Below, one piece after another: positions 40,941 through 58,933 of a stretch of DNA of 64,000 bases (its first letter is position 1; each line of letters begins with the position of its first letter). Below the pieces are notes generated by a model. That model had not been told where the DNA came from. It saw only the letters and a program-made list of their open reading frames with translations, and did no database searches. The stretch spans positions 383,501 to 447,500 of the forward strand of contig NZ_CAJFDC010000012.1 in assembly GCF_904067045.1 (NCBI RefSeq), in the 5' to 3' direction. The stretch is from Pseudomonas sp. FEN. Its GTDB lineage: Bacteria; Pseudomonadota; Gammaproteobacteria; Pseudomonadales; Pseudomonadaceae. The translations under genes and the position numbers were made by a program.

Positions 40941-41053
40941 CTAGACTCTGTAACGAATGCTCAAGCCGTCCCTTGGGCCCTATGAGCGGTTCGAAGTACC
41001 CGAGAGTCGGCTGACCGGCTCCATAAGAAAAACAATCTCGAGGAAATCATCTG

Positions 41054-41968: not shown

Positions 41969-41980
41969 CTCACCGCTGAC

Positions 41981-42018
41981 CCGGCTCCCGCTGGCGCGAA
42001 CGCGGCCTCGGGAGCCGG
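41981..42018 (+). other. Stem-loop between aatJ and aatQ
   Basis: CCGGCTCCC pairs with GGGAGCCGG across a 20-base loop, 12 bases after the aatJ stop. No T run follows. It probably protects the aatJ message or weakens read-through, giving more receptor than permease. Confidence 0.6.
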
Positions 42019-42167
42019 TTGACATCTGCTGTACTGGCTTCTTCTATTGAGATGGGAAAGACACTCGGACCGCGAGCGGTGCGCGTGTGCCTGACTGACC
42101 CTGTCAGGCGGGGCGGAGTCCCGGGAAGCACGTGCGTGACCATTGATTGATCCAAGGGGAGACCCGA

Positions 42168-44316: not shown

Positions 44317-44368
44317 AACGACACCGCTCCCATCGCAACGCCATAGAGGCATGGGAACGGACAACATT

Positions 44369-44467
44369 GTGGGAGCGGAGCTTGTATGGGAGCGGAGCTT
44401 GCCCGCGAAGCTTTTAGCGATCTCAAGGTCGCCTTCGCGGCCTCTCGGCAAGCTCCGCTCCCACACA
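44369..44467. repeat. REP element with internal duplication
   Basis: GTGGGAGCGGAGCTTG is repeated after two bases (TGGGAGCGGAGCTTGCCCGC), so the left arm is doubled, while the right arm GGCAAGCTCCGCTCCCACAC is single. The element lies between aatP and aauS. Confidence 0.85.
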
Positions 44468-44548
44468 AGCGCTGCCCCCACGGGTTATGCGTAAACCCCG
44501 ATCATTTTTCCACAAGAAATACGATCTGGTTGACCCAAGGCAAACGTG

Positions 44549-46450
44549 ATGAAATGCGACCCCAACCTCTATCGCGCGACGCCGCCCTCACTCGCCGTGA
44601 AACCCCGCCTGATCCGCCAACTGTTCGTGCCGCCGCTGATCGTCCTGCTGATGATCGGCCTGGGCTACGTCGGCTATCGCGTCAGCGAACACTATGGCAT
44701 CCGCACCCTCAGCGAAAACGGCGAACGCCAGCTGGAGCTGCACGCCCGGACCGTCGAAAGCGAGATCAGCAAGTACACCTACCTGCCCAGCCTACTGGAG
44801 CTTGAATCCAGTGTCTCGGCCCTGCTCAAGGAGCCAGACGCCGAACACCGACAAACCGTCAACGATTACCTCGAAGGCCTGAACCGCCGCAGTCGCAGCC
44901 GGGCCATCTATGTGCTGGACACCACCGGCCGGGTGTTGGCCACCAGTAACTGGCGCGACGCCGACAGCTACCTCGGCGAAGACCTGTCCTTTCGCGCCTA
45001 CTTCCAGGACGCCGTGCGCGGCCTGCCAGGACGTTTCTACGGCATCGGCAGCACCAGCGGCGAGCCTGGCTATTACCTGGCCCATGGCCTGGAAGAACAC
45101 GGCAAGATCATCGGCGTGGCGGTGATCAAGGTGCGCCTCGAAGCCCTTGAAGAACGCTGGCAACGGGCCCGCCTGGAAGCCTTCGTCAGTGACGAGAACG
45201 GCATCATCATCCTCTCCAGCGACCCGGCCCGGCGTCTCAAGTCCGTGCGCCCGCTGACCCCGGAGATCAAGGAGCGCCTGGCCCGCAGCCTGCAATATTA
45301 CTGGTGGCCGCTGAACGAGCTGCAACCCCTGGCCCGCGAACGCCTGGCCGAAGGCGTGGAAACCCTGACCTTCCCGGCCAATACGGAACTGGCCAAGGAC
45401 GGCGACAGCGTCAGTTACCTGGCCCAGACCCGACGCCTGAGCGACACCCCCTGGCACTTCACCCTGCTCACCCCCCTGCAGGACCTGCGCCGCGAGGCCG
45501 CCAACCAGGGCATCCTGGTGGCCGTGGCCTTCGCCCTGGTCGCCTTCCTGCTGATCGCCTGGAATGAACGGCGCAAGGTCATCGCCACCCGCCTGGCCGC
45601 CCGCGAAGCCTTGCAGGAAGCCAACAGCCAGTTGGAGCGCCGCATTGCCGAGCGCACCGCCGACCTGCGTGCCAGCAACGAGCGGCTCAAGGACCAGATC
45701 CGCGAACGGCGCCAGGCCGAGGAAACCCTGCGCCACGCCCAGGACGAACTGGTCCAGGCCGGCAAGCTGGCCGCCATCGGCCAGATGTCCACCAGCATCG
45801 CCCATGAACTCAACCAGCCACTGGCGGCGCTGCGGACCTTGTCCGGCAACACCGTGCGCTTTCTCGAGCGTGGCGAACTGGACACCGCCAGCACCAACCT
45901 GCGCACCATCAACGATCTGATCGACCGCATGGGCCGGATCACCGCCAGCCTGCGCGCTTTTGCCCGGCGCGGCGACGACAAGGGCGAGTCGAGCCTGGGC
46001 AAGGCCATCGACGCCGCCTTGCAGGTCCTCGGCAGTCGGGTCGAAACCCTGCACCTGGAAGTCCATCGCGACTTCGACGACGTGCAACTGGCCATCGACC
46101 AGACCCGCCTGGAGCAGATCCTGGTCAACCTGATCGGCAATGCCCTCGATGCCATGCAGTCCCAGCCCCTGCCCGAGCTATGGCTGGAGGGTGACTTCGT
46201 CGAGGGCAAATACCGCCTGCGGGTGCGCGACAACGGACACGGTATCGAACCGGCGGCGCGCAAGCACCTGTTCGAGCCCTTTTTCACCACCAAGCCGGGA
46301 GAACAGGGCCTGGGCCTGGGCCTGACCCTCTCCGCCAGCCTCGCGGCGGCGGCCAGCGGCCACTTAGGGGTCGAGCACCCCGGCAGTGGCGGCACCGCCT
46401 TCGTCCTCACTTTACCGCGGGTTCCCCCTGCCAAGGCCGAGCCGATATGA
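44549..46450 (+). CDS. aauS: Sensor histidine kinase AauS (DctB-like)
   Basis: A 633-residue membrane sensor. An N-terminal helix (LFVPPLIVLLMIGLGYVGY), a periplasmic double-PDC/Cache sensor of about 260 residues (YVLDTTGRVLATSNW; DENGIIILSSDP), a second helix (ILVAVAFALVAFLLIAW), a coiled coil, and the kinase core follow in order. The phospho-His lies in MSTSIAHELNQPLAAL, typical of DctB-type kinases. N, G1 and G2 boxes (NLIGNALDAM; DNGHGI; GLGLGLTLS) are intact. It senses acidic amino acids and phosphorylates AauR, with which it overlaps by four bases. ATG at 44549 follows AAGG. Confidence 0.93.
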   Translation: MKCDPNLYRATPPSLAVKPRLIRQLFVPPLIVLLMIGLGYVGYRVSEHYGIRTLSENGERQLELHARTVESEISKYTYLPSLLELESSVSALLKEPDAEHRQTVNDYLEGLNRRSRSRAIYVLDTTGRVLATSNWRDADSYLGEDLSFRAYFQDAVRGLPGRFYGIGSTSGEPGYYLAHGLEEHGKIIGVAVIKVRLEALEERWQRARLEAFVSDENGIIILSSDPARRLKSVRPLTPEIKERLARSLQYYWWPLNELQPLARERLAEGVETLTFPANTELAKDGDSVSYLAQTRRLSDTPWHFTLLTPLQDLRREAANQGILVAVAFALVAFLLIAWNERRKVIATRLAAREALQEANSQLERRIAERTADLRASNERLKDQIRERRQAEETLRHAQDELVQAGKLAAIGQMSTSIAHELNQPLAALRTLSGNTVRFLERGELDTASTNLRTINDLIDRMGRITASLRAFARRGDDKGESSLGKAIDAALQVLGSRVETLHLEVHRDFDDVQLAIDQTRLEQILVNLIGNALDAMQSQPLPELWLEGDFVEGKYRLRVRDNGHGIEPAARKHLFEPFFTTKPGEQGLGLGLTLSASLAAAASGHLGVEHPGSGGTAFVLTLPRVPPAKAEPI

Positions 46451-47772
46451 ATAACGACCTCACTGTCCTGATTGTCGAAGACGACCCGCATGTCCTGCTC
46501 GGCTGCCAGCAGGCACTGTCCCTGGAAGATATCCCCAGCGAAGGTGTCGGCAGCGCCGAAGAAGCCCTGGCGCGGATCGGCGACAACTTCCCCGGCATCG
46601 TCATCAGCGACATCCGCCTGCCGGGCATCGACGGCCTGGAACTGCTGACCCGACTCAAGGCCCGCGACCGCAGCCTGCCGGTGGTGCTGATCACCGGCCA
46701 CGGCGATATCTCCATGGCCGTCGGCGCGATGCGCAACGGCGCCTATGACTTCATGGAAAAACCCTTTTCGCCGGAGCGCCTGGTCGACGTCGCCCGTCGC
46801 GCCCTCGAACAGCGCGGCCTGGCCCGTGAGGTCTGGTCGCTACGCCGGCAACTGGCCGAGCGCGACTCGCTGGAAGGGCGGATCATCGGGCGCTCGCCGG
46901 CTATGCAGAACCTGCGGGAACTGATCGCCAACGTCGCCGACACCTCGGCCAACGTGCTGATCGAAGGCGAGACCGGTACCGGTAAGGAACTGGTTGCCCG
47001 TTGCCTGCATGACTTCAGCCGACGCCAGTCGCAACAGTTCGTCGCCCTCAACTGCGGCGGGCTGCCGGAGAACCTGTTCGAAAGCGAAATCTTCGGCCAT
47101 GAAGCCAACGCCTTCACTGGCGCCGGCAAACGGCGTATCGGCAAGATCGAGCACGCCCATGGCGGCACGCTGTTCCTCGACGAGGTGGAAAGCATGCCGA
47201 TCCCCTTGCAGATCAAATTGCTGCGGGTGTTGCAGGAACGCACGCTGGAACGCCTGGGCTCGAACCAGAGCGTGGCCGTCGATTGCCGGGTCATCGCCGC
47301 CACCAAGTCCGACCTCGACGAACTGGGCCGCGCCGGCGAATTTCGCAGCGACCTGTATTACCGGCTGAACGTGGTGACCCTGGAGCTGCCGCCCCTGCGC
47401 GAGCGGCGCGAGGACATCCTGCAATTGTTCGAGCACTTCCTGCAGCAGTCCTCCCTGCGTTTCGACCGCGCCGTGCCGGAGCTGGACAACCAGACCTTGT
47501 CCAACCTCTTGAGCCACGATTGGCCGGGCAATGTGCGCGAACTGCGCAACGTCGCCGAACGTTTCGCCCTGGGCCTGCCGGCCTTCAAGAAAGCCGGTGC
47601 GCCCAGCGGCGGCGGACTGGGCTTTGCCGAAGCGGTGGAGGCGTTCGAGCGCAACCTGCTGAACGATGCCCTGCAACGCAGCGGCGGTAACCTGACCCAG
47701 GCCAGCCAGGAGCTGGGCATGGCCAAGACCACCTTGTTCGACAAGGTCAAGAAATACGGTTTGAGTCACTGA
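46447..47772 (+). CDS. aauR: Sigma-54-dependent response regulator AauR (DctD-like)
   Basis: A 441-residue activator of the acidic-amino-acid importer. Receiver domain with phospho-acceptor Asp55 (VISDIRLPG). AAA+ domain with Walker A GETGTGKE (174-181) and Walker B GGTLFLDEVE. C-terminal Fis-type helix-turn-helix (NLTQASQELGMAKTTLFDKV). The sigma-54 contact loop, GAFTGA in nearly all family members, reads NAFTGA here (221-226, HEANAFTGAGKRR); the central FTGA is kept. It should bind the palindromes at 40804-40848. Confidence 0.93.
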   Translation: MNNDLTVLIVEDDPHVLLGCQQALSLEDIPSEGVGSAEEALARIGDNFPGIVISDIRLPGIDGLELLTRLKARDRSLPVVLITGHGDISMAVGAMRNGAYDFMEKPFSPERLVDVARRALEQRGLAREVWSLRRQLAERDSLEGRIIGRSPAMQNLRELIANVADTSANVLIEGETGTGKELVARCLHDFSRRQSQQFVALNCGGLPENLFESEIFGHEANAFTGAGKRRIGKIEHAHGGTLFLDEVESMPIPLQIKLLRVLQERTLERLGSNQSVAVDCRVIAATKSDLDELGRAGEFRSDLYYRLNVVTLELPPLRERREDILQLFEHFLQQSSLRFDRAVPELDNQTLSNLLSHDWPGNVRELRNVAERFALGLPAFKKAGAPSGGGLGFAEAVEAFERNLLNDALQRSGGNLTQASQELGMAKTTLFDKVKKYGLSH

Positions 47773-47787
47773 CGGCGGGCAAGCACG

Positions 47788-48126
47788 ATGGATTTACTGT
47801 TGAAGGCCGCGCTCGGCGCGCTGGTCGTGGTGCTGCTGGCGGCCCTGTCGAAAACCCGCAACTACTACATTGCCGGACTGGTACCGCTGTTCCCGACCTT
47901 TGCTCTGATCGCGCACTACATCGTCGGCAAGGGACGCTCGATCGATGATCTGAAGACCACCATCCTGTTCGGCATGTGGTCGATCATCCCCTACTTCATC
48001 TACCTGGCGACGCTGTATGTACTGGTGGACCGGCTGCGCCTCGAAGCATCGCTGGCGCTGGCGGTACTGGCCTGGTTGGTCGCGGCCAGCGTGCTGGTCA
48101 GCCTCTGGCTGCGTTTTCACGCCTGA
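47788..48126 (+). CDS. glpM: GlpM family inner-membrane protein
   Basis: A 112-residue membrane protein with about four helices. NYYIAGLVPLFPTFALIAHY is the GlpM signature. In P. aeruginosa glpM lies directly after glpD and affects alginate production; its molecular role is not known to me. Here it follows aauR by 15 bp, separated from glpD by the aat-aau genes, so it may now be co-transcribed with aauR. Confidence 0.85.
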   Translation: MDLLLKAALGALVVVLLAALSKTRNYYIAGLVPLFPTFALIAHYIVGKGRSIDDLKTTILFGMWSIIPYFIYLATLYVLVDRLRLEASLALAVLAWLVAASVLVSLWLRFHA

Positions 48127-48285
48127 GTCGCGGTCACGGCCCGGACAGCTCGGCCGCCCTGTGCTGGCCCGCCCTTTGCATTCACCGGCAAAGTCCTTAC
48201 GCTGTGTGCTTTTCACCGACGCCGAGCGGCGGCGCGATTCGGCGCCCGATGAGGCGTTGATCATGTTGTTCTAGGAGCTGTTTCC

Positions 48286-48660
48286 GTGTCCCTTGGCGTT
48301 ATTTTGCTGGTACTTTTTTCCGTTGTCCTGGACGTGATCGGCCAACTCTGTTTCAAGATGGGCCTGGACCGCTTGCCAGAGCTGGACGGTGGCTTCAGGC
48401 TGACGGCCTTCTGGGGCCAGGTCTTCAATGCCCCCCTGCTGTGGTGCGGGATCGGCGCCTATGTCATCGAGTTCTTTGTCTGGATCGAAGCCCTGTCCCG
48501 GGCACCGTTGAGCCTGGTGTTTCCCATCGGGGCCCTGGCCTATTGCGGCGTGGTGCTGGTCGGCAAGGTGGTGCTGGGCGAAACCGTCAGCCGCCGCCGC
48601 TGGCTCGGCACCCTGGTGATCACGGCTGGCGTGATGCTGGTAGCCATTTCCGGCGCTTGA
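48286..48660 (+). CDS. Four-helix DMT/EamA-type membrane protein, first of a pair
   Basis: A 124-residue protein with four hydrophobic helices, a half-size drug/metabolite-transporter unit like EmrE or ArnE. Charged residues are few: QLCFKMGLDRLPELDG after helix 1 and VFPIGALAYCGVVLV in helix 3. GTG start with AGGAG at an ideal distance. The next gene, 31 bp downstream, encodes a similar unit, so they probably form a heterodimer as in paired SMR proteins. Substrate unknown. Confidence 0.8.
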   Translation: MSLGVILLVLFSVVLDVIGQLCFKMGLDRLPELDGGFRLTAFWGQVFNAPLLWCGIGAYVIEFFVWIEALSRAPLSLVFPIGALAYCGVVLVGKVVLGETVSRRRWLGTLVITAGVMLVAISGA

Positions 48661-48691
48661 GGGCTCCATTCATGTTCGAAGGAAATTGTTG

Positions 48692-49093
48692 ATGAGCGGT
48701 GCAAAACACATCGACTGGCTGCATGGGCGTTTCGGCACCATCGTGCTCTGGGCCTTGCTGATCGCTTGCGAAAGCGGCGGGCAGATCGCCTCCAAAATCG
48801 GTGGCGACCTGTTGGGGCAGACGGATTTCAGCCTGCAATGGCTCCACGCGGTGCTGCTCAACCCCGGGGTCTGGGCGGCAGTGAGTTGTTATATCGGAGC
48901 GTTTTTCGTCTGGATGCTGATTCTGCGGCGCAGCACGTTGTCGCTGGCGTTTCCGCTGAGTTCGCTGGTGTTTGTCGCGGTGCTGCTGGCGTCCTGGCTG
49001 GGACTGAACGAACAGATCAGCCTGCTGCACTGGATCGGGGTGGCGGTGATCATTGGCGGGATTGCATTGCTGGCCGAGGGTGAGAAGAACTAG
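48692..49093 (+). CDS. Four-helix DMT/EamA-type membrane protein, second of a pair
   Basis: A 133-residue protein with four helices, partner of the preceding unit. It has a longer cytoplasmic N terminus (MSGAKHIDWLHGRFGT), then CESGGQIASKIGGDLL, LRRSTLSLAFPLSSLVF and a final helix ending GIALLAEGEKN. GAAGG lies upstream of the ATG at 48692; a TTG at 48686 is less likely. Paired half-size units of opposite topology are common in the SMR/ArnEF group. It converges on the MipA-like gene. Confidence 0.8.
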   Translation: MSGAKHIDWLHGRFGTIVLWALLIACESGGQIASKIGGDLLGQTDFSLQWLHAVLLNPGVWAAVSCYIGAFFVWMLILRRSTLSLAFPLSSLVFVAVLLASWLGLNEQISLLHWIGVAVIIGGIALLAEGEKN

Positions 49094-49180
49094 CCAGCGA
49101 TGGCGCTGAACGTGACACCGCCATCGCCGACAATCGAGTATCGAGTATCGAGCGGCGCTCCCAAGGGGGAAGGTCCGACC

Positions 49181-49954
49181 TCAGAACTTGTAGCTGATCG
49201 CCGTCTGGACCTGGCGCTGGTTGTTGTCGCCGCGCTGTTTGACGATGCTGCTGTCCGCCACCGAGCCCACCAGATGAATCCAGCTGGCACTGGTCATCAG
49301 CGACCAGTTGCCACCCAGCGGGAAGGCAAAGCTCTGGGTCAGGGTCAGATTCTGGAAGCCACCGCCAACATGGTACTGGCTGATTCCCGAAGCCCGCGCC
49401 TCCTGGGCACTGACGCCGAAGAAGGTCTGGGCCTGGCGCTCATCGGCAAAGTGCGCGGTGATGTTGCTGCGGCCGATAATTCCCGTGCCCAGCGGATAGC
49501 CCAGCTCGCCCCCCAAACGCCCCGACAGGCCACCCTGGCCGCCACCGCCGCCGACGGCACTGCCCAGTGCGACGAAGAGCCGCCAGAAGTCATCCGGCGC
49601 GTATTCCACGTAACCGCCCGCCACGACCATGTCCGGCACATCACGCAAACCGCGCAACGAGCCATTGGACACCCGCCCCGTGAGGTAGCTGGCAAAAGGC
49701 CCGGCATTAAAACCATTGGCCCTGAACGCCGCCCAGCTCAGGCCGTCATCGCCACTGAGGCTGACATCGCCCCAGTCCAGATCCACATACGGCAGCGGCA
49801 CCACTTCATAGCGGCTGCCCGAGGGGTCATAGGGTAGATAGCCCAGCCCGGCCCCCAACTGTCCGGTAATCCCCTCGTCGGCCATGACGGCTGGAACCAG
49901 ACCGCCCAGGGAAAACAGGCCGGCAAGCAGCAATGAGGGAGTCAACCGATTCAT
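49181..49954 (-). CDS. MipA/OmpV family outer-membrane protein
   Basis: A 257-residue outer-membrane barrel. A signal peptide (LLLAGLFSLGGLVPAVMA) precedes the MipA/OmpV features: an early GAGLGYLPYDP strand, GTGIIGRSNITAHFADERQA, FFGVSAQEARASG and a C-terminal aromatic residue (AISYKF). In E. coli MipA is a scaffold for murein synthesis; elsewhere such proteins are induced by antibiotics or polyamines. It diverges from the phosphatase-led operon, sharing 231 bp that hold TGTAGC palindromes and a sigma-54 promoter. AAGGACTC precedes the ATG. Confidence 0.87.
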   Translation of the reverse strand: MNRLTPSLLLAGLFSLGGLVPAVMADEGITGQLGAGLGYLPYDPSGSRYEVVPLPYVDLDWGDVSLSGDDGLSWAAFRANGFNAGPFASYLTGRVSNGSLRGLRDVPDMVVAGGYVEYAPDDFWRLFVALGSAVGGGGGQGGLSGRLGGELGYPLGTGIIGRSNITAHFADERQAQTFFGVSAQEARASGISQYHVGGGFQNLTLTQSFAFPLGGNWSLMTSASWIHLVGSVADSSIVKQRGDNNQRQVQTAISYKF

Positions 49955-50006
49955 GAAAAAGAGTCCTTGTCGATACATGCCTTACGTGATCATAAGCACG
50001 CTTTTT

Positions 50007-50062
50007 TGTAGGCAAGCACTGATGTTGTTTGTAGCAAGCTACATTTTTTGTAGCTTGCTGTA
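50007..50062. promoter_or_regulatory. Three TGTAGC-type palindromes, candidate enhancer sites
   Basis: TGTAGC-AA-GCTACA (50030-50043) is a perfect inverted repeat. TGTAGC-TT-GCTGTA (50049-50062) has two changes, and TGTAGGCAAGCACT (50007-50020) is a degenerate copy. Centres are 23 and 19 bp apart, close to two helical turns, and lie 60-110 bp upstream of the sigma-54 promoter at 50120. They could also serve the divergent mipA-like gene. Confidence 0.65.
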
Positions 50063-50119
50063 TTGAATCCAATACATGCAGAGAGGGGATATTCGATAAG
50101 AATAGCGGATTCGAGCACT

Positions 50120-50135
50120 TGGCACACTCCATGCT
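50120..50135 (+). promoter_or_regulatory. Sigma-54 promoter of the phosphatase-aminotransferase operon
   Basis: TGGCACACTCCATGCT keeps GG and GC ten bases apart (50121-50122 and 50133-50134) with a full TGGCAC core. It lies 51 bp before the first gene of an operon that encodes its own NtrC-type activator. Confidence 0.75.
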
Positions 50136-50185
50136 CTGCGCTACGGCATGCGCAGTGTGCGCTCTTATCCAACAGGTACAAGCAG

Positions 50186-50890
50186 ATGATGCACTGGCAT
50201 ATCGTGTGTGACTTCGATGGGACCATCTCCCGCACCGACGCGATCGACAACATTCTCGAGCGTTTCGCCGACCCGAGCTGGGAAAGCATCGAGCAAGAAT
50301 GGCTGGACGGTCATATCGGTTCGCGCGAATGCCTCAGCCGCCAATTGGCGCTGGTCAAGGCCTCGCCAGCCGACCTGCTGGCGTACTTCGACACCATCGA
50401 TATCGACCCGGACTTCCCGGACTTCGTCGATCATGTCATGGGCCTGGGCGCTTCCATCGAAGTGGTCAGCGACGGTATCGAGCAAGGCATCGCGCGAGTC
50501 CTCTCGCGCAACTACGTGACCTTGTTGCCGATTCTCGCCAACCGCCTGCGCCAGGTCGATCACAATAGCTGGCGCATCGATTTCCCGTATTCCAGCGACG
50601 CTTGCCGCGCCGCCTCCGGCAACTGCAAATGCAAGTCCGCGCCCAAGGGCAAGCGCATCCTGGTGATCGGCGACGGTCAATCGGACATGTGCGTGGCCGG
50701 CACCGCCGACTTCGTCTTCGCCAAGGGCCGCCTGGCCGAACATTGCGAACGCAACAATATTCCTTACGCGCGCTTCGATTCCTTCGCCGAGCTGCCGGCC
50801 CTGCTGGCCCTGCTGCCGAACGAAATCGCGGCGAACGCCGGCACCTTCTCTATCGATCTTGAACAACAGGAACTCTTCCACCATGTCTGA
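50186..50890 (+). CDS. MtnX-like HAD-IB phosphatase
   Basis: A 234-residue HAD-superfamily phosphatase. Motif I is CDFDGTIS with the nucleophile and acid/base Asp, motif II is in EVVSDG and motif III/IV is VIGDGQSDMCVAG. The fold resembles MtnX (2-hydroxy-3-keto-5-methylthiopentenyl-1-phosphate phosphatase) and SerB. A Cys-rich insert, CRAASGNCKCKSAPKG, precedes the last motifs. No other methionine-salvage gene is adjacent, so the MtnX activity should not be assumed. Two adjacent ATGs (50186, 50189) are possible starts. It overlaps the aminotransferase gene by eight bases. Confidence 0.87.
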   Translation: MMHWHIVCDFDGTISRTDAIDNILERFADPSWESIEQEWLDGHIGSRECLSRQLALVKASPADLLAYFDTIDIDPDFPDFVDHVMGLGASIEVVSDGIEQGIARVLSRNYVTLLPILANRLRQVDHNSWRIDFPYSSDACRAASGNCKCKSAPKGKRILVIGDGQSDMCVAGTADFVFAKGRLAEHCERNNIPYARFDSFAELPALLALLPNEIAANAGTFSIDLEQQELFHHV

Positions 50891-52277
50891 TATTCGTATC
50901 GCTACAGCCGAAGACCAGGTGCTTCTGGAAAAAGAAGCCAAATATTGCTCCTACGGCGATACAGTTCACTACATCGAACCACCACGCATTTTCAGCCGCT
51001 GCGAAGGTTCCTACGTCTGGGACACCGAAGACCAGGCCTACCTCGACCTGCAAATGTGGTACTCGGCGGTCAACTTCGGCTACGCCAACCCACGTCTGAA
51101 CAACGCCCTGAAGCAACAGATCGACACCCTGCCGCAGATCGCCAGCCAGTACCTGCACAAAGGCAAGATCGAACTGTCGGAAATGATCGCGGTCGACGCC
51201 AAGAACAAATTCGGCCTCGACGGTCGCGTGCACTTCAACGTCGGCGGTTCGCAGTCCATCGAGGACTCGCTGAAAGTCGTGCGTAACGCCAGCAACGGCA
51301 AGAGCCTGATGTTCGCCTTCGAAGGCGGCTACCACGGCCGTACCCTGGGCGCGTCCTCGATCACTTCGAGCTACCGCTACCGTCGCCGCTACGGCCACTT
51401 CGGCGAGCGCGCGCAGTTCATCCCGTTCCCGTACCACTTCCGCGGCCCGAAAGGCATGACCAAGGAAGAATACGGCAGCCACTGCGTGCAGCAGTTCGCC
51501 CGTCTGTTCGAAACCGAATACAACGGTGTCTGGGACCCGAAAGTCGGTTCCAGCGAATACGCCGCGTTCTACGTCGAGCCGATCCAGGGCACCGGCGGCT
51601 ACGTTATCCCGCCGATGAACTTCTACAGCGAACTGAAGCAGGTCCTCGACCAGCACGGCATCCTGATGGTCGTCGACGAAATCCAGATGGGTTTCTGGCG
51701 TACCGGCAAGCTGTGGTCGATCGAACACTTCGACGTCAAGCCGGACGTGATCGTCTTCGGCAAGGCGCTGACCAACGGCCTGAACCCGCTGGGCGGCATC
51801 TGGGCCCGTGAAGAGCTGATCAACCCGAAGATCTTCCCACCAGGCTCCACCCACTCGACCTTCGCCTCGAACCCACTGGGTACCGCGGTAGGTCTGGAAA
51901 TGTTCAAGATGACCAGCGAAGTCGACTACGGCGCCATGGTCATGGCCAAGGGCAAGTACTTCCTCGAAGGCCTGCAAGAGCTGCAGAAACGCTTCCCGAT
52001 CATCGGCGACGTCGATGGCCTGGGCCTGGCCCTGCGCTGCGAAATCTGCACCGCCGACGGCTTCACCCCGGACAAGGCGACCCTGGACTATATGGTCGAG
52101 GAAGGCATGAAGGGCGACATGGTGGTTGACGGTCAGAAACTCGGCCTGATCCTCGACGTGGGCGGCTACTACAAGAACGTGATCACCCTGGCGCCGTCGC
52201 TGGAAATCAGCTACCCGGAAATCGACCTGGGCCTGAAACTGCTCGAGCAACTGCTGAACCGAGCCATGAAGCGGTGA
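50883..52277 (+). CDS. Class III (aspartate aminotransferase family) PLP aminotransferase
   Basis: A 464-residue pyridoxal-phosphate enzyme of the omega-aminotransferase group. The cofactor Asp265 lies in LMVVDEIQMGFWRTG and the Schiff-base Lys294 in VFGKALTNGLNPLGG; GGYHGRTLGAS and EPIQGTGGYVIPP also match. GGSQSIEDSLKVVRNA replaces the more common GSEA-type phosphate block. Codon use is very uniform, as for well-expressed genes. The family moves amino groups between alpha or terminal amines and keto acids or aldehydes; the substrate here is unknown. It starts inside the phosphatase gene and its stop overlaps a possible GTG start of the next. Confidence 0.92.
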   Translation: MSDIRIATAEDQVLLEKEAKYCSYGDTVHYIEPPRIFSRCEGSYVWDTEDQAYLDLQMWYSAVNFGYANPRLNNALKQQIDTLPQIASQYLHKGKIELSEMIAVDAKNKFGLDGRVHFNVGGSQSIEDSLKVVRNASNGKSLMFAFEGGYHGRTLGASSITSSYRYRRRYGHFGERAQFIPFPYHFRGPKGMTKEEYGSHCVQQFARLFETEYNGVWDPKVGSSEYAAFYVEPIQGTGGYVIPPMNFYSELKQVLDQHGILMVVDEIQMGFWRTGKLWSIEHFDVKPDVIVFGKALTNGLNPLGGIWAREELINPKIFPPGSTHSTFASNPLGTAVGLEMFKMTSEVDYGAMVMAKGKYFLEGLQELQKRFPIIGDVDGLGLALRCEICTADGFTPDKATLDYMVEEGMKGDMVVDGQKLGLILDVGGYYKNVITLAPSLEISYPEIDLGLKLLEQLLNRAMKR

Positions 52278-52279
52278 AC

Positions 52280-53140
52280 ATGACACCTATCGATCTGGGC
52301 GAAGGCGATGCCGGCTTCGTACTCGGCTCGGGTCCGGTCGGGATCTTGTTGATCCACGGCCTGACCGGCACCCCGACGGAACTCCGTCGGGTGGCCCAGG
52401 GCCTGGCCAAGAAGGGCAACTGCACGGTTTACGTGCCAACCCTGGCCGGGCACTGCGGCGGTAACGAAGACCTGCAAGCCACCGGCTGGCTGGACTGGTA
52501 TGAAGGCGTACGCAAGACCTTCGTGGCGGTGAAACAGCGCCACGAACAAGTTTTCGTCGGCGGCTTGTCCATGGGCGCGGTGATGTCCATGTACATGGCC
52601 TCCGAGCATCCGGGGCAGATCGCCGGACTGCTGATGTATTCGACAACGTTGCGCTACGACGGCTGGAGCATCCACAAACTGGCGTTCCTCACGCCATTGT
52701 TGATGAAGATTCCGTTCGGCGTGCACATCTGTCGTTTCGAGGAAAAGCCACCGTACGGCATCAAGAACGAACGCCTGCGGGCCATCGTCGAGCGCCAGAT
52801 GAAGGCCGGCCAGAGCAGCGATGCCGGGTTGCTGACCATGGAAGGCATCACCGTGCGCGAACTGCACCGGATGAACGCCGTGGTCATGCGGCGCATGCCC
52901 TCGATCAAGACCCCAGCCCTGGTGATCCACTCCGTCGAGGACGATATCACCAGCCCGTGGAACGCCGACTACGTCGAGCGGCACCTGGGCGGCCCGGTCA
53001 CCAAGGTCATGCTCGACAACTGCTATCACATGATCACTGTCGACCTGCAATACAAGGAAGTGATCGAGCTGAGCGCCGACTATGTCGAGCGCCTGAGCGG
53101 CGTCTCGAGCGAGCCTGAAGTACAGCGGCAACAGGCCTGA
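52280..53140 (+). CDS. Alpha/beta hydrolase (carboxylesterase/monoacylglycerol lipase-like)
   Basis: A 286-residue serine hydrolase without signal peptide. The oxyanion motif is LLIHGLTGTP (His26-Gly27). The nucleophile is Ser97 in VGGLSMGAV, and the triad is completed by an Asp in HSVEDDITSP and a His in NCYHMIT. The general architecture matches short carboxylesterases such as Est30. Start either ATG 52280 or GTG 52274, the latter overlapping the aminotransferase stop by four bases. The acyltransferase gene follows after 10 bp. Confidence 0.88.
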   Translation: MTPIDLGEGDAGFVLGSGPVGILLIHGLTGTPTELRRVAQGLAKKGNCTVYVPTLAGHCGGNEDLQATGWLDWYEGVRKTFVAVKQRHEQVFVGGLSMGAVMSMYMASEHPGQIAGLLMYSTTLRYDGWSIHKLAFLTPLLMKIPFGVHICRFEEKPPYGIKNERLRAIVERQMKAGQSSDAGLLTMEGITVRELHRMNAVVMRRMPSIKTPALVIHSVEDDITSPWNADYVERHLGGPVTKVMLDNCYHMITVDLQYKEVIELSADYVERLSGVSSEPEVQRQQA

Positions 53141-53150
53141 GGAAAGCCCC

Positions 53151-54275
53151 GTGATCAGCGCCCAAGCCTTCTCGACCATCGAGGCTATCGACCGTAACGC
53201 CTGGAACGATTGCTTTGTCGGTGTACTGGAGAATTGGGAGTACTACCTGGCGGTGGAGAAAGCCGGCATCGAAGACTTCGAATGGCGCTACCTGGCCCTG
53301 TTCGAAGACGGTCGTCTGCTGGCGGTCGCCCCCGCCTTCATTACCTCTTACAAGCTCGACACCACAGTGCAGGGCTTGGTCAAGCGCATCACCGGCTGGA
53401 TCAATCGATGCCTGCCCGGTGTACTCGAATTTCCGCTCTACGCCATCGGCTCGCCCGTGGCGGAGCGTTGCACGGTCGGAACGGCCAGCCATGTCGCGGT
53501 AGAACGGCGCCAGGCCTTGCTCGACCAACTGCTGGCGCTGGCCCGCGATGACGCCCGGCACCTGGGTATCCGCCTGATCGCCGTCAAGGACGCGCCGAGC
53601 CTGGACAATGACTGGAGCCGCAGTTGCAAGGCCGCCGGCTACCAGGTGATGCCCAGCCTGCCCAGCGCCCTGCTGCCCATCCCGTTCGGCTCCATCGACG
53701 CCTATCTGGGTACCCTGGACAAGACCACCCGCAAGGACCTGCGGCGCAAGCTGCGGGCCCCCGGACCGCGGATCGAATGGCGCCGCAACATCGACGATGT
53801 ACTGCCACGGATCATGGACCTGTACCAGGCGACACTGGCGCGCAGCGAACTGCAATTCGAACGGCTGCCGGCGGGTTACTTCAGCAACGTGCTCGCACAC
53901 ATGGATGAGCGCGCGGCCTGTGTCCTGTACTGGGCCGGCGACCGGCTGGTGGCGTTCAACCTGGTGCTGTTCGACGGCGAACGCTTGATCGACAAATTTT
54001 TCGGTCATGAGGTGAACCAAAGCCGTGAACCCACTCTCTATTTCCGCAACTGGCTGGCCAATGTCGAGTACTGCATTCGCCACGAAATCCCCCTCTACGA
54101 ATCCGGGCAGGCCGGTTACGCCAGCAAGATTCGCCTGGGCTGCAACTTCCAGGGCAACAACATGTTTTTCCATCATCGCAACTGGCTGGTCAACAATGTC
54201 CTCAGAGGGGTCAAATTGTTGGTTCGCCCGGATCGATTCGACCCTGCCATGTCTGCTGCGATAAGCGAAACTTGA
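53151..54275 (+). CDS. BioF2/FemAB-like GNAT-fold acyltransferase
   Basis: A 374-residue protein of the 'GNAT family N-acetyltransferase / BioF2-like' type. Typical segments are ENWEYYLAVEKAGIEDFEWR near the N terminus, LDKTTRKDLRRKLR in the middle, and the second GNAT half LVAFNLVLFDGERLIDKFFG with LYESGQAGYASKIRLGC. Such two-GNAT-domain proteins transfer acyl or aminoacyl groups to amines, but the donor and acceptor cannot be read here. GTG start with GAGG upstream. Its stop overlaps the kinase start (TGATG), tying it to the two-component genes. Confidence 0.82.
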   Translation: MISAQAFSTIEAIDRNAWNDCFVGVLENWEYYLAVEKAGIEDFEWRYLALFEDGRLLAVAPAFITSYKLDTTVQGLVKRITGWINRCLPGVLEFPLYAIGSPVAERCTVGTASHVAVERRQALLDQLLALARDDARHLGIRLIAVKDAPSLDNDWSRSCKAAGYQVMPSLPSALLPIPFGSIDAYLGTLDKTTRKDLRRKLRAPGPRIEWRRNIDDVLPRIMDLYQATLARSELQFERLPAGYFSNVLAHMDERAACVLYWAGDRLVAFNLVLFDGERLIDKFFGHEVNQSREPTLYFRNWLANVEYCIRHEIPLYESGQAGYASKIRLGCNFQGNNMFFHHRNWLVNNVLRGVKLLVRPDRFDPAMSAAISET

Positions 54276-56068
54276 TGACCAACACGCCAGAACGCCGCCG
54301 TAAACGACGCCGCCCCTTCTCGATCTCGCGCTGGAGCGTGCAACGTAAATTGTTGCTGGCGTTCTGGCTGGTCAGCGTGGTGCCGACCATGATCGCCGCG
54401 GAGCTGGCAGCCACCACCCTGTCGGAGATTTTCGACAGCAACGTGCGCATCTGGCTGCAAGAGTCGACCAAGGTGGTCAAGGATGAAATCAGCGAGATCA
54501 AGCGTTCTAACGCCCGGGTCGCGCAATTGTTCCTGCTCTACACCCGTCCGCCCAGCTCACGCCGGGCCGCCAAGCATGACAAGTTGACCGCCGATATCGC
54601 CGATGCCATGGGCATCGACCTGGTCGCGCTGGTGCGCAGCCAGGATCACAAGGTGGTGTTCACCACCCAACCCGATGACATCGTCTCGCAGATCAGCACC
54701 GCGCCCAATGCCGTATTGCAGACCATCCAGATCTCGGGCGTGACCACCGGCGTGGTGGTCTCGACCTTCGACACCACCCAGGACGGCGTCGACTACCAGA
54801 TGATCATCGCGACCTACCTGGACAACGGCTTCCTCAACAGTGTCGCCGACGTGCATTCCCTGGACCTGCGCCTGTACCTGGCCAACCCCCAGGGGTTTTC
54901 CGAAATATTCTCCACCCAGCGCTTCGAGGATCGCCCCAGCAACATGCCTGAGAGCATCACCGAAACCCTGCGTGAAACCCGCCAACCCAGCGAAGTCTTC
55001 ACCAACCGCTACAGTGGCCTGTACTGGCCGATCTTCAACGATACCGGTGAGCTGCAGGGGGTAATCTTCAGTGGTCTGTTGCGGCATACCAGCCTGGTCG
55101 GCCTGGTCAACCAGAGCAACCTGTTCATCCTGATCTTCATGCTTGGCTCGGCGCTGTCGCTGAGTGCCGGCTGGCTGGTTTCGCGGCGCCTGACCCTGCC
55201 CTTGCGCGGCCTGGCCGATGGCGTCGGCGCGGTCATTTCCGGCGACTACAGCAAGCGCATCGCGGTGATCGGCAGCGATGAGCTGGCGGAGCTGAGCCAT
55301 ACCTTCAACCATATGACCGAACGCCTGGGTGAGCTGCATCACCTCGAAGCCCAGTTGCGCCGCCGTGACCGGCTGCACGCCCTGGGCGAAGTCGCCATGG
55401 GCCTGGCCCACGAAATCCGCAACCCGCTGGGCATCATCAAGACCGCCACCCAGTTGCTGCACCGTCGGGCCAACCTGCCGGACACCGATAAACGACATCT
55501 GGAATACGTGATCAGCGAAGTCTCGCGGATCAACGACCTGATCACCGAATTCCTCGATTTTGCCAAGCCCAGCGCACCGATTCGCGCGCTCTACCCGGCG
55601 CGGGAGCTGGCCGAGGAAGTCCTCGGGTTCTGCGCACCGGAACTGGCAACCCACAATATCGACGCGCAGATCGACGATCAGGCACCGGGCGCCACCCTGT
55701 ATGCCGACTCCCGGCAGTTGAAACAGGCCTGCCTGAACCTGATCCTCAATGCCATCGACGCCATGCCCAAGGGCGGGCGCCTGACCCTCGGCATCGCCAA
55801 GGACTCGCACTACACCATCATCAGTGTTTCCGACACGGGACAGGGCATCGAGCCGGACATGATCGAACGTATTTTCACGCCGTTCGTCACCACCAAGGCC
55901 TCGGGTACCGGCCTGGGCCTGGCGAAGGTTTATTCGATCATGGAGAACCATGACGGGCGGATCGAGTGCATCAGCGAAAAAGATGCCGGCGCGACCTTCA
56001 ACCTGTACATTCCGGCCCATGGCGGCAACCTGGACCACGAGGATGAGGAAGAAGAAGATGACGCATAA
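54275..56068 (+). CDS. NtrB-type membrane sensor histidine kinase
   Basis: A 597-residue sensor. A very basic N terminus (RRRKRRRPF), first membrane helix (LLLAFWLVSVVPTMIAAEL), an extracytoplasmic sensor of ~240 residues, second helix (LFILIFMLGSALSLSAGWLV), HAMP linker, and a kinase core with phospho-His in MGLAHEIRNPLGIIK. N box NLILNAIDAMPKGG, G1 DTGQGI and G2 GTGLGLAKVYSI are intact. The tail is strongly acidic (DHEDEEEEDDA). The sensed signal is unknown; operon position suggests a substrate or product of the upstream enzymes. It overlaps the regulator gene by 11 bases. Confidence 0.92.
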   Translation: MTNTPERRRKRRRPFSISRWSVQRKLLLAFWLVSVVPTMIAAELAATTLSEIFDSNVRIWLQESTKVVKDEISEIKRSNARVAQLFLLYTRPPSSRRAAKHDKLTADIADAMGIDLVALVRSQDHKVVFTTQPDDIVSQISTAPNAVLQTIQISGVTTGVVVSTFDTTQDGVDYQMIIATYLDNGFLNSVADVHSLDLRLYLANPQGFSEIFSTQRFEDRPSNMPESITETLRETRQPSEVFTNRYSGLYWPIFNDTGELQGVIFSGLLRHTSLVGLVNQSNLFILIFMLGSALSLSAGWLVSRRLTLPLRGLADGVGAVISGDYSKRIAVIGSDELAELSHTFNHMTERLGELHHLEAQLRRRDRLHALGEVAMGLAHEIRNPLGIIKTATQLLHRRANLPDTDKRHLEYVISEVSRINDLITEFLDFAKPSAPIRALYPARELAEEVLGFCAPELATHNIDAQIDDQAPGATLYADSRQLKQACLNLILNAIDAMPKGGRLTLGIAKDSHYTIISVSDTGQGIEPDMIERIFTPFVTTKASGTGLGLAKVYSIMENHDGRIECISEKDAGATFNLYIPAHGGNLDHEDEEEEDDA

Positions 56069-57455
56069 CGTCCTGGTGGTCGATGACGAGCCCAAGCTCT
56101 GCGACCTGCTGAGCTCGGCGCTGAGCCAGAACGATATCCAGGTCTTTACCGCCGGCAACGGCCTGGAAGCGCTGGTGGTGCTGGAACAGGAAGACATCGA
56201 CCTGGTCATCAGCGACTGGCGCATGCCGGGCATGGACGGGCCGCAGTTGCTGGCAGAGGTCAAGCTGCGCTTCCCGCAGCTGCCGGTCATCGTGATGACC
56301 GCCTACAGCACCGTGAAGAATGCCGTGCAATCAATGCGCAACGGCGCCTTCGACTATATCGCCAAGCCTTTCGACATCGACGAGCTGGACATCACCGTCA
56401 ACAAAGCCCTGCAGTTTCGCGACATCCTGCGGGACAACGCACGCATGCGCGCCGAACTCGAAGAGCACCAGCAGATCGACAGCCTGGTGGGCGACAGTCC
56501 GACCTTCCGCCGGGTCCTGCAAGCCGTGGACTCGGTGCGTGAGAGCAACGCCACCATCCTGCTGACCGGCGAGAGCGGTACCGGCAAGGAAATGGTCGCC
56601 CGGGCCATCCACAAACACGGCAACCGCGCCGACATGCCGTTTGTCGCGGTCAACTGCGCGGCGATTCCCGAAGGCTTGCTGGAAAGCGAGATGTTCGGCC
56701 ATCGCAAGGGGGCCTTTACCGGGGCCGTGTCGGACCGGGTCGGACGCTTCATGCAGGCCGACAAGGGCACCCTGTTTCTCGATGAAATCGGTGACATGCC
56801 GCTGGCGTTGCAGGCCAAGATCCTTCGTGCGCTGCAGGAGCGGATCATCGAACCGGTGGGCGATCCGCGCGAGCGCAAGGTCGACGTGCGGGTAATTGCC
56901 GCGACCAACAAGAACCTGCTGCAAGCCGTGGCCGACAAGGAGTTTCGCGAAGACCTGTATTACCGTCTGAACGTCTTCCCGATTCCCCTGCCCGCCCTGC
57001 GCGAGCGGGTCGAGGACATCGCCCCGCTGGCCCGGCATTTCGCCCACACCCTGGGCGCCACGGCCGGTAAACGTATCGATGGTTTCAGCCCGCAGGCCTT
57101 GCAAGCAATGCTCAACTACCCGTGGCCGGGCAACATCCGCGAACTGCAAAACTGTGTGGAGCGGGCGACCATCGTCGCGGCCGGCCACATGATCGAAGTG
57201 ACGGACTTGCCGGCTTATCTGTTCGAATCGACGCCGCCGCAGAGCAGCGTCGCGCCACTGCCCGGCGTGGCCCCCGGCTTACCGAAAGACCTCGATGCGG
57301 CCCTGGCGGACGTGGAGAAGGCCTATATCCTCGCGGCCCTGCAGGAAAGCAATGGCGTGCAGGCAGCGGCAGCGCAGTTGATCGGGATTTCCGAACGCAG
57401 CTTCTGGTATCGCCTGAAGAAGCTGGCGATCCACGTCGACAAGATCATCCGCTGA
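56058..57455 (+). CDS. NtrC-type sigma-54-dependent response regulator
   Basis: A 465-residue activator. Receiver phospho-acceptor Asp53 (VISDWRMPGMDG). AAA+ domain with Walker A GESGTGKE, an intact sigma-54 loop KGAFTGAV, Walker B GTLFLDEIGD and the sensor Arg in YPWPGNIREL. A C-terminal Fis-type helix-turn-helix (GVQAAAAQLIGISERSFWYR) follows. Its natural targets would be the TGTAGC palindromes and sigma-54 promoter at the head of this operon, making the operon self-activated; that is an inference from position. Confidence 0.93.
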   Translation: MTHNVLVVDDEPKLCDLLSSALSQNDIQVFTAGNGLEALVVLEQEDIDLVISDWRMPGMDGPQLLAEVKLRFPQLPVIVMTAYSTVKNAVQSMRNGAFDYIAKPFDIDELDITVNKALQFRDILRDNARMRAELEEHQQIDSLVGDSPTFRRVLQAVDSVRESNATILLTGESGTGKEMVARAIHKHGNRADMPFVAVNCAAIPEGLLESEMFGHRKGAFTGAVSDRVGRFMQADKGTLFLDEIGDMPLALQAKILRALQERIIEPVGDPRERKVDVRVIAATNKNLLQAVADKEFREDLYYRLNVFPIPLPALRERVEDIAPLARHFAHTLGATAGKRIDGFSPQALQAMLNYPWPGNIRELQNCVERATIVAAGHMIEVTDLPAYLFESTPPQSSVAPLPGVAPGLPKDLDAALADVEKAYILAALQESNGVQAAAAQLIGISERSFWYRLKKLAIHVDKIIR

Positions 57456-57489
57456 CCTCTGAACGGCGATGTGGAAAACACCGCTTAAC

Positions 57490-57575
57490 CTGTAGCCTGG
57501 CTTGCCAGCGAAGCTTTTAGCGGCCTCAAGGGCCCCTTCGCGAGCAATCGAGCGTCGACCGGCTGCTCCTACAGG
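57490..57575. repeat. Composite REP with unlike arms
   Basis: The left arm (CTGTAGCCTGGCTTGCCAGC) belongs to the CTTGCC class and the right arm (CGAGCGTCGACCGGCTGCTC) to the GTCGAC class seen at 4071. The core TTTTAGCGGCCTCAAGGGCC is shared with other REPs. This looks like recombination between two REP families. Confidence 0.75.
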
Positions 57576-57611
57576 ACGGAGGACGGAGTTGGCCGCAATG
57601 ACGCGCGCCCT

Positions 57612-58604
57612 TCAGAGCTGCGCCCAACGACTGACATCGCCCTGATGCAGACGCAGGTACGGCAGCACCGCCGCCAGTAACGGCGCCTTGAATGCCTCCT
57701 GGAACCGATGGGCCAGCCCTGGAATCAGCACCAGTTGACTGCCCTGGATATGCGCCGCCAAGTGCACCCCGTGCATCACCGGCAACAACGGATCGGCCGT
57801 GCCATGGACCACCAGGGTCGGCACCCGCAGTTGATTGAGCAACGGCACGCGGCTCGGCTCGGCGAGAATCGCCATGATCTGACGCTTCACCCCCTCGGGG
57901 TTGAAAGCCCGGTCATAGGCGACCGCCGCCTGCTGCAACAGCTTGCGCCGGTCATCACGGACCGTGGGGCTGCCGAGGGCGGCCAACAGGTCCGCCTGCT
58001 GCTCGATCGCCACCTCGCGGTTCGGCGCGCCACGCCGGGACAGCAACTGCACCAGCGCGGCACTCGGCGCCGGCAGACCCTCGGCACTGGAACTGGTCAT
58101 GACCAGGGTCAGGCTCTCGATCCGCTGCGGTGCCATCGCGGCCAGGTGCTGGGCGATCATCCCGCCCATACTGGCGCCAAGCACATGGAACTGCTGGATC
58201 TGCAACGCATCCATCAGGCCCAGGGCATCGCCGGCCATATCGGTCAGGGTGTAAGGCGCCGCCACCGGCAGGCCGAGCTTGTAGCGCAGCACTTCGAAGG
58301 TCAGATTGGCGCTGGCCGGGGGCTGACGCCAGGTGGACAGGCCGACATCGCGATTGTCATAGCGAATCACCCGGAAACCCTGCTGGCAGAGCGCGACCAC
58401 CACTTCGTCGGGCCAGTGGATCAACTGCCCCCCCAGGCCCATGACCAGCAGCAAGGCTGGATCCGAGGCCCGCCCGATACTCTGGTAGGCCAGGCTGACG
58501 CTATCCAGATCGACCCGCTCGGTCGGAACATTGACATCACATCTTGAAGCCGCAAAAGACGGCAGGCCGAACAGCAGTGCGGCCAGGAAAATTACTAAAC
58601 GCAT
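57612..58604 (-). CDS. Exported alpha/beta hydrolase
   Basis: A 330-residue hydrolase with a signal peptide ([16 protein letters not shown]), so probably periplasmic or secreted. Ser145 lies in the nucleophile elbow [12 protein letters not shown]. An Asp is in [10 protein letters not shown] and the His in [21 protein letters not shown] is typical of the epoxide-hydrolase/TAP-like branch. The start at 58604 gives the signal peptide at the N terminus; the longer frame to 58787 would bury it. Convergent with the upstream regulator operon, divergent from metR. Substrate unknown. Confidence 0.85.
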
Positions 58605-58933
58605 GAAAACACCGAAACGCAGAACCCCATTGAGGCGCGAGTTTGATGTTATTTGTTCAATGGCGCTGCCACAGTTCAGTGACAGTTTGATGAAGATTGC
58701 CAAGCGCTGCCTGCGTAGACGAATTCCCAGGCCGACATGGACATTGTGGGGGCTTGCTGACGATGGCAATTGTCCAGGCGAGCACAATGTCGACTATTGG
58801 ATCGCGTCGCCCGCAAGCTGGCGCCTACGGGTTCGCGTCAAGCAAGCGATAGCACTCTTGTCGACAGCCAGGGCAACATGAGACAAACTCATCCCCCAAC
58901 CGCCATTCACAAAATTTACTCATGGAGCCCCAG
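58605..58933. other. 329-bp intergenic region between the hydrolase and metR
   Basis: No gene is supported. It holds the divergent promoters and a single REP-like half (GCCCGCAAGCTGGCGCCTAC, about 58809). The 60 bases before metR are AT-richer. Confidence 0.5.

Follow-up and report, generated by a model that had tools for sequence, protein, structure and literature searches.

A conserved sigma-54-type locus of Pseudomonas sp. FEN with a dedicated NtrC-type activator and a candidate amine-bearing envelope product

A stretch of 64,000 nucleotides from Pseudomonas sp. FEN (contig NZ_CAJFDC010000012.1, positions 383,501 to 447,500; hereafter the window, numbered from its first letter) carries a densely packed operon in which four enzyme genes are followed by the genes of a sensor kinase and an NtrC-type activator, which raises the question of what turns this operon on and what its enzymes make. 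As claimed in the initial annotation, six intact co-directional open reading frames (ORFs) lie downstream of a -24/-12 box and encode, in order, a HAD phosphatase, an aminotransferase, an alpha/beta hydrolase, a tandem-GNAT protein, the kinase and the activator, with junctions of 8 bases overlap, 4 bases overlap, a 10-base gap, 4 bases overlap (1 with the ATG start of the kinase) and 11 bases overlap. Their motifs are intact, namely GAFTGA, Walker A and the receiver region, the kinase H-box, DFDGT of the HAD phosphatase, GLSMG of the hydrolase and the aminotransferase lysine. The extent of 50007-57455 first assigned to the cluster proved too short: the operon makes up one half of a locus with two operons, which reaches left to about 48165 and has the outer-membrane barrel gene mipA between the halves. 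We regard the locus as a genuine and conserved system whose type of regulation is known but which seems to be undescribed; the initial annotation recognised no described pathway with this gene set, and our search of open-access literature likewise gave no paper whose listing describes it. The explanation we favour, on which we find the balance about even, is a self-contained sigma-54 regulon that makes and exports an amine-bearing, probably lipid-type, envelope compound. Its regulatory half is the strongest part and its chemistry the weaker part.

Promoter, operator and cognate activator

The proposed sigma-54 promoter at 50120-50135 is borne out by its box, which 70 of 71 Pseudomonas-type upstream regions conserve; the region of L058, a stripped second copy in P. 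libanensis, is the only one without it. These regions comprise the window and 70 loci (L042-L110 and L113, L108 being recorded merely as a gammaproteobacterium), which were drawn from the best 80 of at least 589 relatives and are biased to close kin; the 59 loci of at least 19 kb each served for counting the presence and absence of genes, and the 11 shorter ones were excluded. The weight of the box comes from this conservation and not from the pattern match alone, and as stand-alone evidence it was set aside, since the sigma-54 pattern with up to one mismatch occurs 14 times in the window (two of them exact) and 30 times would be expected from shuffles. A scan of 47700-58900 for sigma-70-type promoters gave none, with 2.4 expected by chance.

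Upstream of the box lies the inverted repeat GCTACA-N5-TGTAGC, which is exact in 46 of the 71 regions and has at most one mismatch in 69 (0.0% and 0.04% in shuffled controls that preserve base composition only), is exact in the Nevskia loci L111 and L112 as well, and occurs as a single exact copy in the 6.79 Mb genome. Together, repeat and box appear to form an NtrC-type arrangement, with operator letters that differ from the NtrC site consensus. The distance from the centre of the repeat to the -24 GG, taken in 70 regions, is 72.5-75.5 bp in 46, 62.5-63.5 bp in 21, 84.5-85.5 bp in two and 129.5 bp in one; the groups near 73, 63 and 85 bases differ by one turn of the helix, which would fit an activator that has to face the polymerase. 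Three palindromes had been described here, of which one is perfect (50030-50043) and one carries two mismatches (50049-50062), while the third, at 50007, is just a TGTAG half-site. The perfect one, TGTAGC-N2-GCTACA, has at most two mismatches in 70 of the 71 regions, is the single exact site in the genome, and was found once each, at the same operon, in three of eight other genomes searched (G017, G029 and G044), with no exact copy in the other five. The outer palindromes share half-sites with GCTACA-N5-TGTAGC, which is the part present outside Pseudomonas; the three-palindrome reading was set aside on these grounds, and we prefer to read the palindromes as a single operator of NtrC geometry with outer half-sites.

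The activator encoded by the last gene has the receiver, the AAA+ domain with the GAFTGA motif and the Fis-type helix-turn-helix (HTH) of the NtrC type, adjoins a histidine kinase gene, and is inherited together with the box and the repeat. In a tree of 34 rows (33 different), made up of cluster activators and other matches from four of the genomes, the cluster-borne activators, including those of other genera, form one clade with support of 100/100. Cluster activators are 53-60% identical to that of the window; the non-cluster matches of the same four genomes reach at most 44% where receiver and central domain are spanned and at most 53% in partial central-domain matches. The activator scores below the curated NCBIfam cut-offs for AtoC (482.1/714 bits), NtrC (453.2/558.6) and ZraR (398/760), as does the kinase for AtoS (214.9/646) and NR(II) (84.3/240). 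Each of the aminotransferase, the kinase and the activator falls under the cut-off of all 25 curated models listed, so a closer family name cannot be given to them.

Are the enzymes routinely separated from their two-component genes? In Pseudomonas they are not, kinase and regulator being present in 58 of the 59 full loci, whereas outside Pseudomonas they largely are: a GAFTGA-type activator was found in five of the 36 loci from other genera, the remainder having two-component genes of other kinds or none at all, or being cut off by a contig end. Among the 23 of these 36 loci whose upstream regions were examined (the other 13 being excluded), all five clusters with such an activator (L111, L112, L152, L154 and L168) have a box scoring 9-11/12 and a 6-N5-6 repeat with at most two mismatches, and L156 has both as well, its contig ending before an activator could show. 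The 17 examined clusters without a GAFTGA-type activator include 15 with neither element, L167 with a box of score 9 and L118 with a repeat of two mismatches. About 3 kb from the L167 cluster lies a regulator of NtrC length, 33% identical, which lacks the GAFTGA motif.

The periplasmic part of the kinase was modelled, and the 50 structural matches listed by VIA-align are mostly Cache sensor domains (Z 10.8-13.6, a middling score, over 118-220 of 240 residues); the model suggests a double-Cache-like domain, a Cache-type periplasmic fold following a long helix. We infer self-regulation from the co-conservation described above. A periplasmic signal would be received by this sensor domain, perhaps aided by the outer-membrane protein MipA, the kinase would phosphorylate its NtrC-type partner, and the activator would bind the repeat and open the -24/-12 promoter, thus raising the enzymes and their own sensor together. 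The dedicated activator, operator and promoter are co-inherited across families, and we hold this regulatory half of the explanation to be very probable.

Left half, spread and surroundings

The features of both halves are collected in Table 1. The left half begins with a second sigma-54-like box whose core cTGGCCCg.CCcTTGCATT is conserved between unconserved flanks in 51 of 58 smr1-bearing loci (L042-L113 and the window were scanned); of 57 upstream regions, 48 have a box scoring at least 10/12, and those that fall short are L042 and L105 (score 9) and seven non-Pseudomonas loci. The pair of small transporter genes, smr1 and smr2, is found in 49 of the 59 full loci, and mipA, the sole PF06629 match in the genome, in 58. 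For smr2, TTG starts just upstream of its ATG are also possible.

Table 1. Features of the two-operon locus in the window.
Feature	Position	Strand	Basis or remark
Second sigma-54-like -24/-12 box, TGGCCCGCCCTTTGCA	48165..48180	+	upstream of the small-transporter genes; before the arginase-family gene in most relatives
smr1, ArnF-like small (SMR/EamA) transporter subunit	48286..48660	+	EamA 2.5e-07; NCBIfam ArnF 1.7e-14, below cut-off
smr2, ArnE-like small transporter subunit	48692..49093	+	NCBIfam ArnE 1.8e-10, below cut-off; EamA just below cut-off
mipA, outer-membrane MipA/OmpV-family barrel	49181..49978	-	PF06629 6e-33; divergent from the operon
Outer palindrome TGTAGC-AA-GCTACA	50030..50043	.	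perfect
Proposed operator GCTACA-N5-TGTAGC	50038..50054	.	putative regulator site; centre 75.5 bp upstream of the -24 GG
Second, imperfect outer palindrome, TGTAGCTTGCTGTA	50049..50062	.	weaker or absent in relatives
Sigma-54 -24/-12 promoter, TGGCACACTCCATGCT	50120..50135	+	conserved box (see text)
MtnX-like HAD-IB phosphatase	50186..50890	+	TIGR01489 82.6 bits, cut-off 81.55; DFDGT motif
Class III PLP (pyridoxal phosphate) aminotransferase	50883..52277	+	PF00202 6.3e-73
Alpha/beta hydrolase (Hydrolase_4)	52274..53140	+	PF12146 5.7e-17; GLSMG nucleophile elbow
FemAB-like tandem-GNAT transferase (accessory)	53151..54275	+	PF04339 2.3e-11
NtrB/AtoS-type sensor kinase	54272 (TTG) or 54275 (ATG)..56068	+	two transmembrane segments, HAMP, HisKA, HATPase (Pfam); H-box
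Predicted periplasmic sensor domain of the kinase, double-Cache-like	54395..55114	+	model pLDDT 83.5; reaches slightly into both transmembrane segments
NtrC/AtoC-type sigma-54 activator	56058..57455	+	Response_reg 1.6e-30, Sigma54_activat 5.8e-72, HTH_8 5.5e-13; GAFTGA at residue 218

In relatives that have it, an arginase-family gene sits directly 5' of smr1. It occurs in 38 of the 59 full loci and is missing from the window as well as from L042 and L043, the two closest kin of the window. Three of four scanned proteins match PF00491 with 34.6-37.8 bits (cut-off 22), the Bartonella one reaching 19.4, and all 12 aligned rows share residues H75/H76, D95-H97-D99 and D213-D215, which match the metal ligands of arginases. 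Its distribution follows that of the GNAT gene: both are present in 38 loci, neither in 15, GNAT alone in six and arginase alone in none (Fisher 1.4e-09), and on our own reading of the tree of phosphatase and aminotransferase the two were lost together in several places. The phosphatase, aminotransferase and hydrolase genes, by comparison, are present in 59 of 59 loci, the GNAT gene in 44 and a desaturase-like gene in 11. The general core is phosphatase, aminotransferase and hydrolase, and the GNAT protein is an accessory that travels with the arginase-family protein. In a locus labelled P. putida (L096), an extra GNAT gene, 38% identical, lies between the two small transporter genes (from L096:5613). 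Four loci lack kinase and regulator (L058, L059, L076 and L106), in three of which the contig ends in or just past the hydrolase gene. P. libanensis DSM 17149 has two copies of the cluster, L067 in full and L058 with phosphatase, aminotransferase and hydrolase only and without the sigma-54 box.

The aminotransferase is the most conserved protein of the cluster, with a median identity to the window of 95% over the 70 loci, compared with 87% for the activator, 67% for GNAT and 62% for MipA. Surveys that counted the genome of the window found the aminotransferase in 113 of the 398 genomes sampled from Pseudomonas (E <= 1e-150), in six of 369 sampled from the class (E <= 1e-100) and in 25 of 398 sampled from the phylum (E <= 1e-130). 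Of 72,556 plasmid records, 34 carry it (E <= 1e-60); 28 of these 34 are rhizobial and 17 are typed as conjugative. Across Nevskia, Bartonella, Wohlfahrtiimonas, Oleiagrimonas, Xanthomonas and rhizobia its identity is 73-79%, and the phylum survey gave 55-76% for its non-Pseudomonas members. Rhizobia, Bartonella and Xanthomonas can have the whole cluster or some of its genes on plasmids (L123-L128), which may let it move between species. On phosphatase and aminotransferase DNA, P. gingeri G9001 and Pseudomonas sp. QS1027 are nearest to the window, with a highest identity of 97%.

In other genera the gene order varies, and phosphatase, hydrolase, GNAT, arginase and the transporter pair recur around the aminotransferase gene. 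Besides, genes for a DegT-type aminotransferase, KAS and ACP are found near it in Xanthomonas and others, a desaturase and (in Rhizobium) a cyclopropane synthase in rhizobia, and a cyclopropane synthase in Nevskia, while TolC/ABC/HlyD exporter genes adjoin several clusters. Reduced clusters consist of aminotransferase, GNAT and arginase-like genes only (Bartonella sp. HY038) or of the aminotransferase gene only (L171). Unsupervised clustering of the open frames of 29 loci, in which unannotated groups on the strand opposite to known genes were treated as shadows, yielded no further shared enzyme except UvrA, which three genomes of a single family have together with a porin. The large ORFs beside the cluster in these genomes were considered as peptide synthetases and set aside, as the two that were scanned matched UvrA domains.

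Upstream of the locus, at 40925-40939, is a further exact match to the TGGCAC-N6-TGC box. Some 115 bp beyond it comes a series of ORFs in one direction (41054-44316), which includes an ABC-ATPase-like match (43561-44232) and is followed by a kinase/NtrC-type regulator pair (44546-47772) and a GlpM-family gene (47788-48126). We presume that 40925-47772 resembles the acidic amino acid uptake cluster aatJQMP-aauSR, its regulator pair resembling AauSR. Many Pseudomonas have glpM between this regulator pair and the arginase/transporter operon, and others have glpM and the regulator inverted on the far side, implying that the surroundings of the cluster have been rearranged.

Enzymes and candidate chemistry

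The phosphatase belongs, by score and by its DxDGT motif, to the MtnX-like HAD-IB subfamily, passing the cut-off narrowly; its PDB matches are 2fea (4.3e-16) and phosphoserine phosphatases (about 5e-05). MtnX proper, of methionine salvage, was set aside, as TIGR03333 (89.1/303.2 bits) and PRK09552 (107.3/292) both score under their cut-offs. The aminotransferase is of class III, with its PLP lysine K294 invariant in six aligned sequences, and finds its best PDB matches in an archaeal 4-aminobutyrate-type aminotransferase and an alanine/serine racemase.

For the GNAT protein, for which no transmembrane segment is predicted, a structure model (pLDDT 88) matches best FemX, FemA and aminoacyl-tRNA-dependent peptide synthases (Z 19.3-21.4), then the soluble domains of MprF (Z 17.8-19.4) and N-myristoyltransferases (Z 16.4-17.2). 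Its tandem-GNAT fold is that of the FemABX/MprF aminoacyl transferases at a sequence identity of 9-17%; with mixed families at similar Z the tables for both modelled proteins fix the fold but not the donor or ligand, and kinship may extend to families outside the listed matches. The donor could be an aminoacyl-tRNA or a fatty acyl carrier (acyl-CoA/ACP). Kinship with the acyltransferases of bacterial ceramide synthesis (spt, yghO/CC_1154) was considered by way of E. coli YghO and gained no support: YghO of K-12, which has IS5 at one end, matches no Pfam family at E 0.1, while the GNAT protein matches FemAB_like. A FemAB-like paralogue, 26% identical, is encoded elsewhere in the genome (G000:C1:1030596-1031705, L207:8590-9708), its neighbours including the gene of an outer-membrane barrel (L207:5820-6677) and an ORF that matches no Pfam family; the nine ORFs scanned in that stretch include no other gene of the cluster. 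Weak relatives of the paralogue were seen in five other Pseudomonas genomes. PADLOC gave no anti-phage defence match for four enzymes of the window and the arginase of a relative, and spread by viruses was set aside, as a single viral relative was found at 23% identity.

We saw no early biosynthetic enzyme shared among the loci, which suggests that the aminotransferase probably takes a central phosphorylated keto compound and that the phosphatase finishes the amine. The two enzymes would turn such a compound into an amino alcohol, in analogy to the SerC/SerB steps of the serine pathway; an alternative and documented precedent is the conversion of dihydroxyacetone phosphate to serinol. The hydrolase would process an ester, in most relatives the GNAT protein would add, and the arginase-family hydrolase trim, an extra acyl or aminoacyl group, and the ArnE/ArnF-like pair would carry the product across the inner membrane. 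Judged by the recurring lipid genes, this pair and MipA, the product is most likely destined for the envelope. We hold an amine compound made for the envelope to be a plausible outcome whose chance falls slightly short of even.

Weighing the product

Comparison with described systems places the locus among known types without equating it with any of them. It shares with NtrBC, AtoSC and ZraSR the receiver, the GAFTGA AAA+ domain and the Fis-type HTH, a 6-N5-6 repeat upstream of -24/-12, and a kinase with HAMP, HisKA and HATPase domains, but its proteins score under the AtoC, NtrC, ZraR and AtoS cut-offs and its activators form a separate clade tied to this cluster. The arn operon for 4-amino-4-deoxy-L-arabinose (L-Ara4N) on lipid A, which has the ArnE/ArnF flippase, has in common with it the ArnF/ArnE-like transporter pair and, as we propose, an amine-bearing product crossing the inner membrane. 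However, ArnF (54.3/99 bits) and ArnE (41/92) stay under their cut-offs, a DegT-type aminotransferase is present in some distant relatives only, and no relative of arnA, arnC, arnD or arnT was noticed among the genes looked at, for which no dedicated search was made. P. simiae WCS417 has a separate arn operon (PMC10516422), and another P. simiae strain (L066) carries this cluster. Likeness to MprF and FemX resides in the GNAT fold, which aligns along most of the protein (Z about 21 to FemX/FemA), and in the Pfam family FemAB_like; unlike MprF, the GNAT protein has no predicted transmembrane segment and hence no flippase domain, and it resembles N-myristoyltransferases too. According to PMC10936184, MipA of P. 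aeruginosa is a proposed polymyxin co-sensor of ParS, and a two-component system adjoined mipA in most cases of a neighbour survey. Our locus likewise encodes a MipA barrel beside a two-component system, but one of NtrC type and with sigma-54, with biosynthetic genes linked and no mipB noticed at the locus.

A secreted diffusible amine, such as an antibiotic, a signal or another metabolite, exported by the small transporters or a TolC-type pump, would suit the TolC/HlyD/ABC genes beside several clusters, the patchy occurrence of the aminotransferase in Pseudomonas and its presence on mostly rhizobial plasmid records. We nevertheless consider it rather unlikely, because desaturase, cyclopropane synthase and MipA recur and point to membranes, and because no peptide-synthetase or adenylation gene was noticed among the neighbours that were scanned; the two very large ORFs among these, from one family, matched UvrA domains. 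Nutrient use is often under the control of sigma-54/NtrC-type systems with Cache sensors, presumably including the AauSR-like pair at 44546-47772, and class III aminotransferases are common in amine catabolism. With amine and amino-acid receptors among the Cache matches, the kinase might thus sense an outside amine or amino acid that aminotransferase, phosphatase and hydrolase degrade. The shared neighbour groups include no importer or dehydrogenase, though, the transporters resemble exporters or flippases, and lipid genes recur, so that such a catabolic operon appears distinctly improbable.

Not exclusive of the explanation we favour, but a special case of it, is the formation of serinol from dihydroxyacetone phosphate by aminotransferase and phosphatase, followed by N-acylation by the GNAT protein to an N-acyl-serinol lipid. 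PMC11800397 describes the formation of (S)-serinol phosphate by Cj1437 and the removal of the phosphate, once the amide has formed, by the HAD phosphatase Cj1435; as with RtxA, the likeness to our locus would lie in aminotransferase and phosphatase steps from a phosphorylated ketone, by analogy only. The central substrate would need no further early enzyme and the GNAT model resembles N-myristoyltransferases, while the best PDB matches of the aminotransferase are of other kinds, leaving the link one of analogy, and the arginase-family partner has no role in the scheme. We give this lipid a slender chance.

Returning to the envelope regulon, several results weigh against it or narrow it. The Cache relatives of the sensor domain include amino-acid, choline and histamine receptors, which would suit nutrient sensing as well as envelope stress. 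Near the second box the operator is found, with up to three mismatches, in just four of 51 loci; its control of the transporter promoter was set aside, as it is missing there in 47, and the transporter genes may answer to another activator. No convincing sigma-54 box precedes mipA (best scores 0-9/12, with 9 in seven of 69 loci). Sites with one mismatch to the operator occur at three other places in the genome (G000:C7:358529, C14:3957 and C14:289229), a reversed control of the pattern gives 69 genome matches at one mismatch, and the repeat of L152, overlapping its -24 box, may not be an operator. The loci are related to one another, and counts in loci are not independent events. A whole-genome search, run without a positive control, found no arginase in the genome of the window, and 15 of the 59 relatives have neither GNAT nor arginase, implying that the full chemistry is not obligatory.

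A bolder version, which we rate as a long shot, would make the locus a third route beside Arn and MprF to positive envelope charge in Gram-negatives, placed under sigma-54 control. Aminotransferase and phosphatase would make an amino-alcohol head, onto which the FemX/MprF-fold transferase would load an aminoacyl group (at its boldest, arginine taken from tRNA); the strictly co-travelling arginase-fold hydrolase would trim arginine to ornithine, the ArnE/F-like pair would flip the product, and MipA and the Cache-type kinase would sense the challenge, be it cationic or lipophilic. Shorter or uncut variants would then be made by species that lack both GNAT and arginase and by this genome, where arginase is absent.

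The key enzyme is about 75% identical across Pseudomonas, Nevskia, Bartonella, Xanthomonas and rhizobia and is found in more than a quarter of the sampled Pseudomonas, so its product should be useful. The locus offers several handles for study: its activator is dedicated, its operator has one exact copy in the genome, there are two promoter boxes, and some natural variants have neither GNAT nor arginase. If the envelope compound is indeed its product, the locus would represent a new route of surface amination, relevant to root- and host-associated bacteria that meet cationic compounds.

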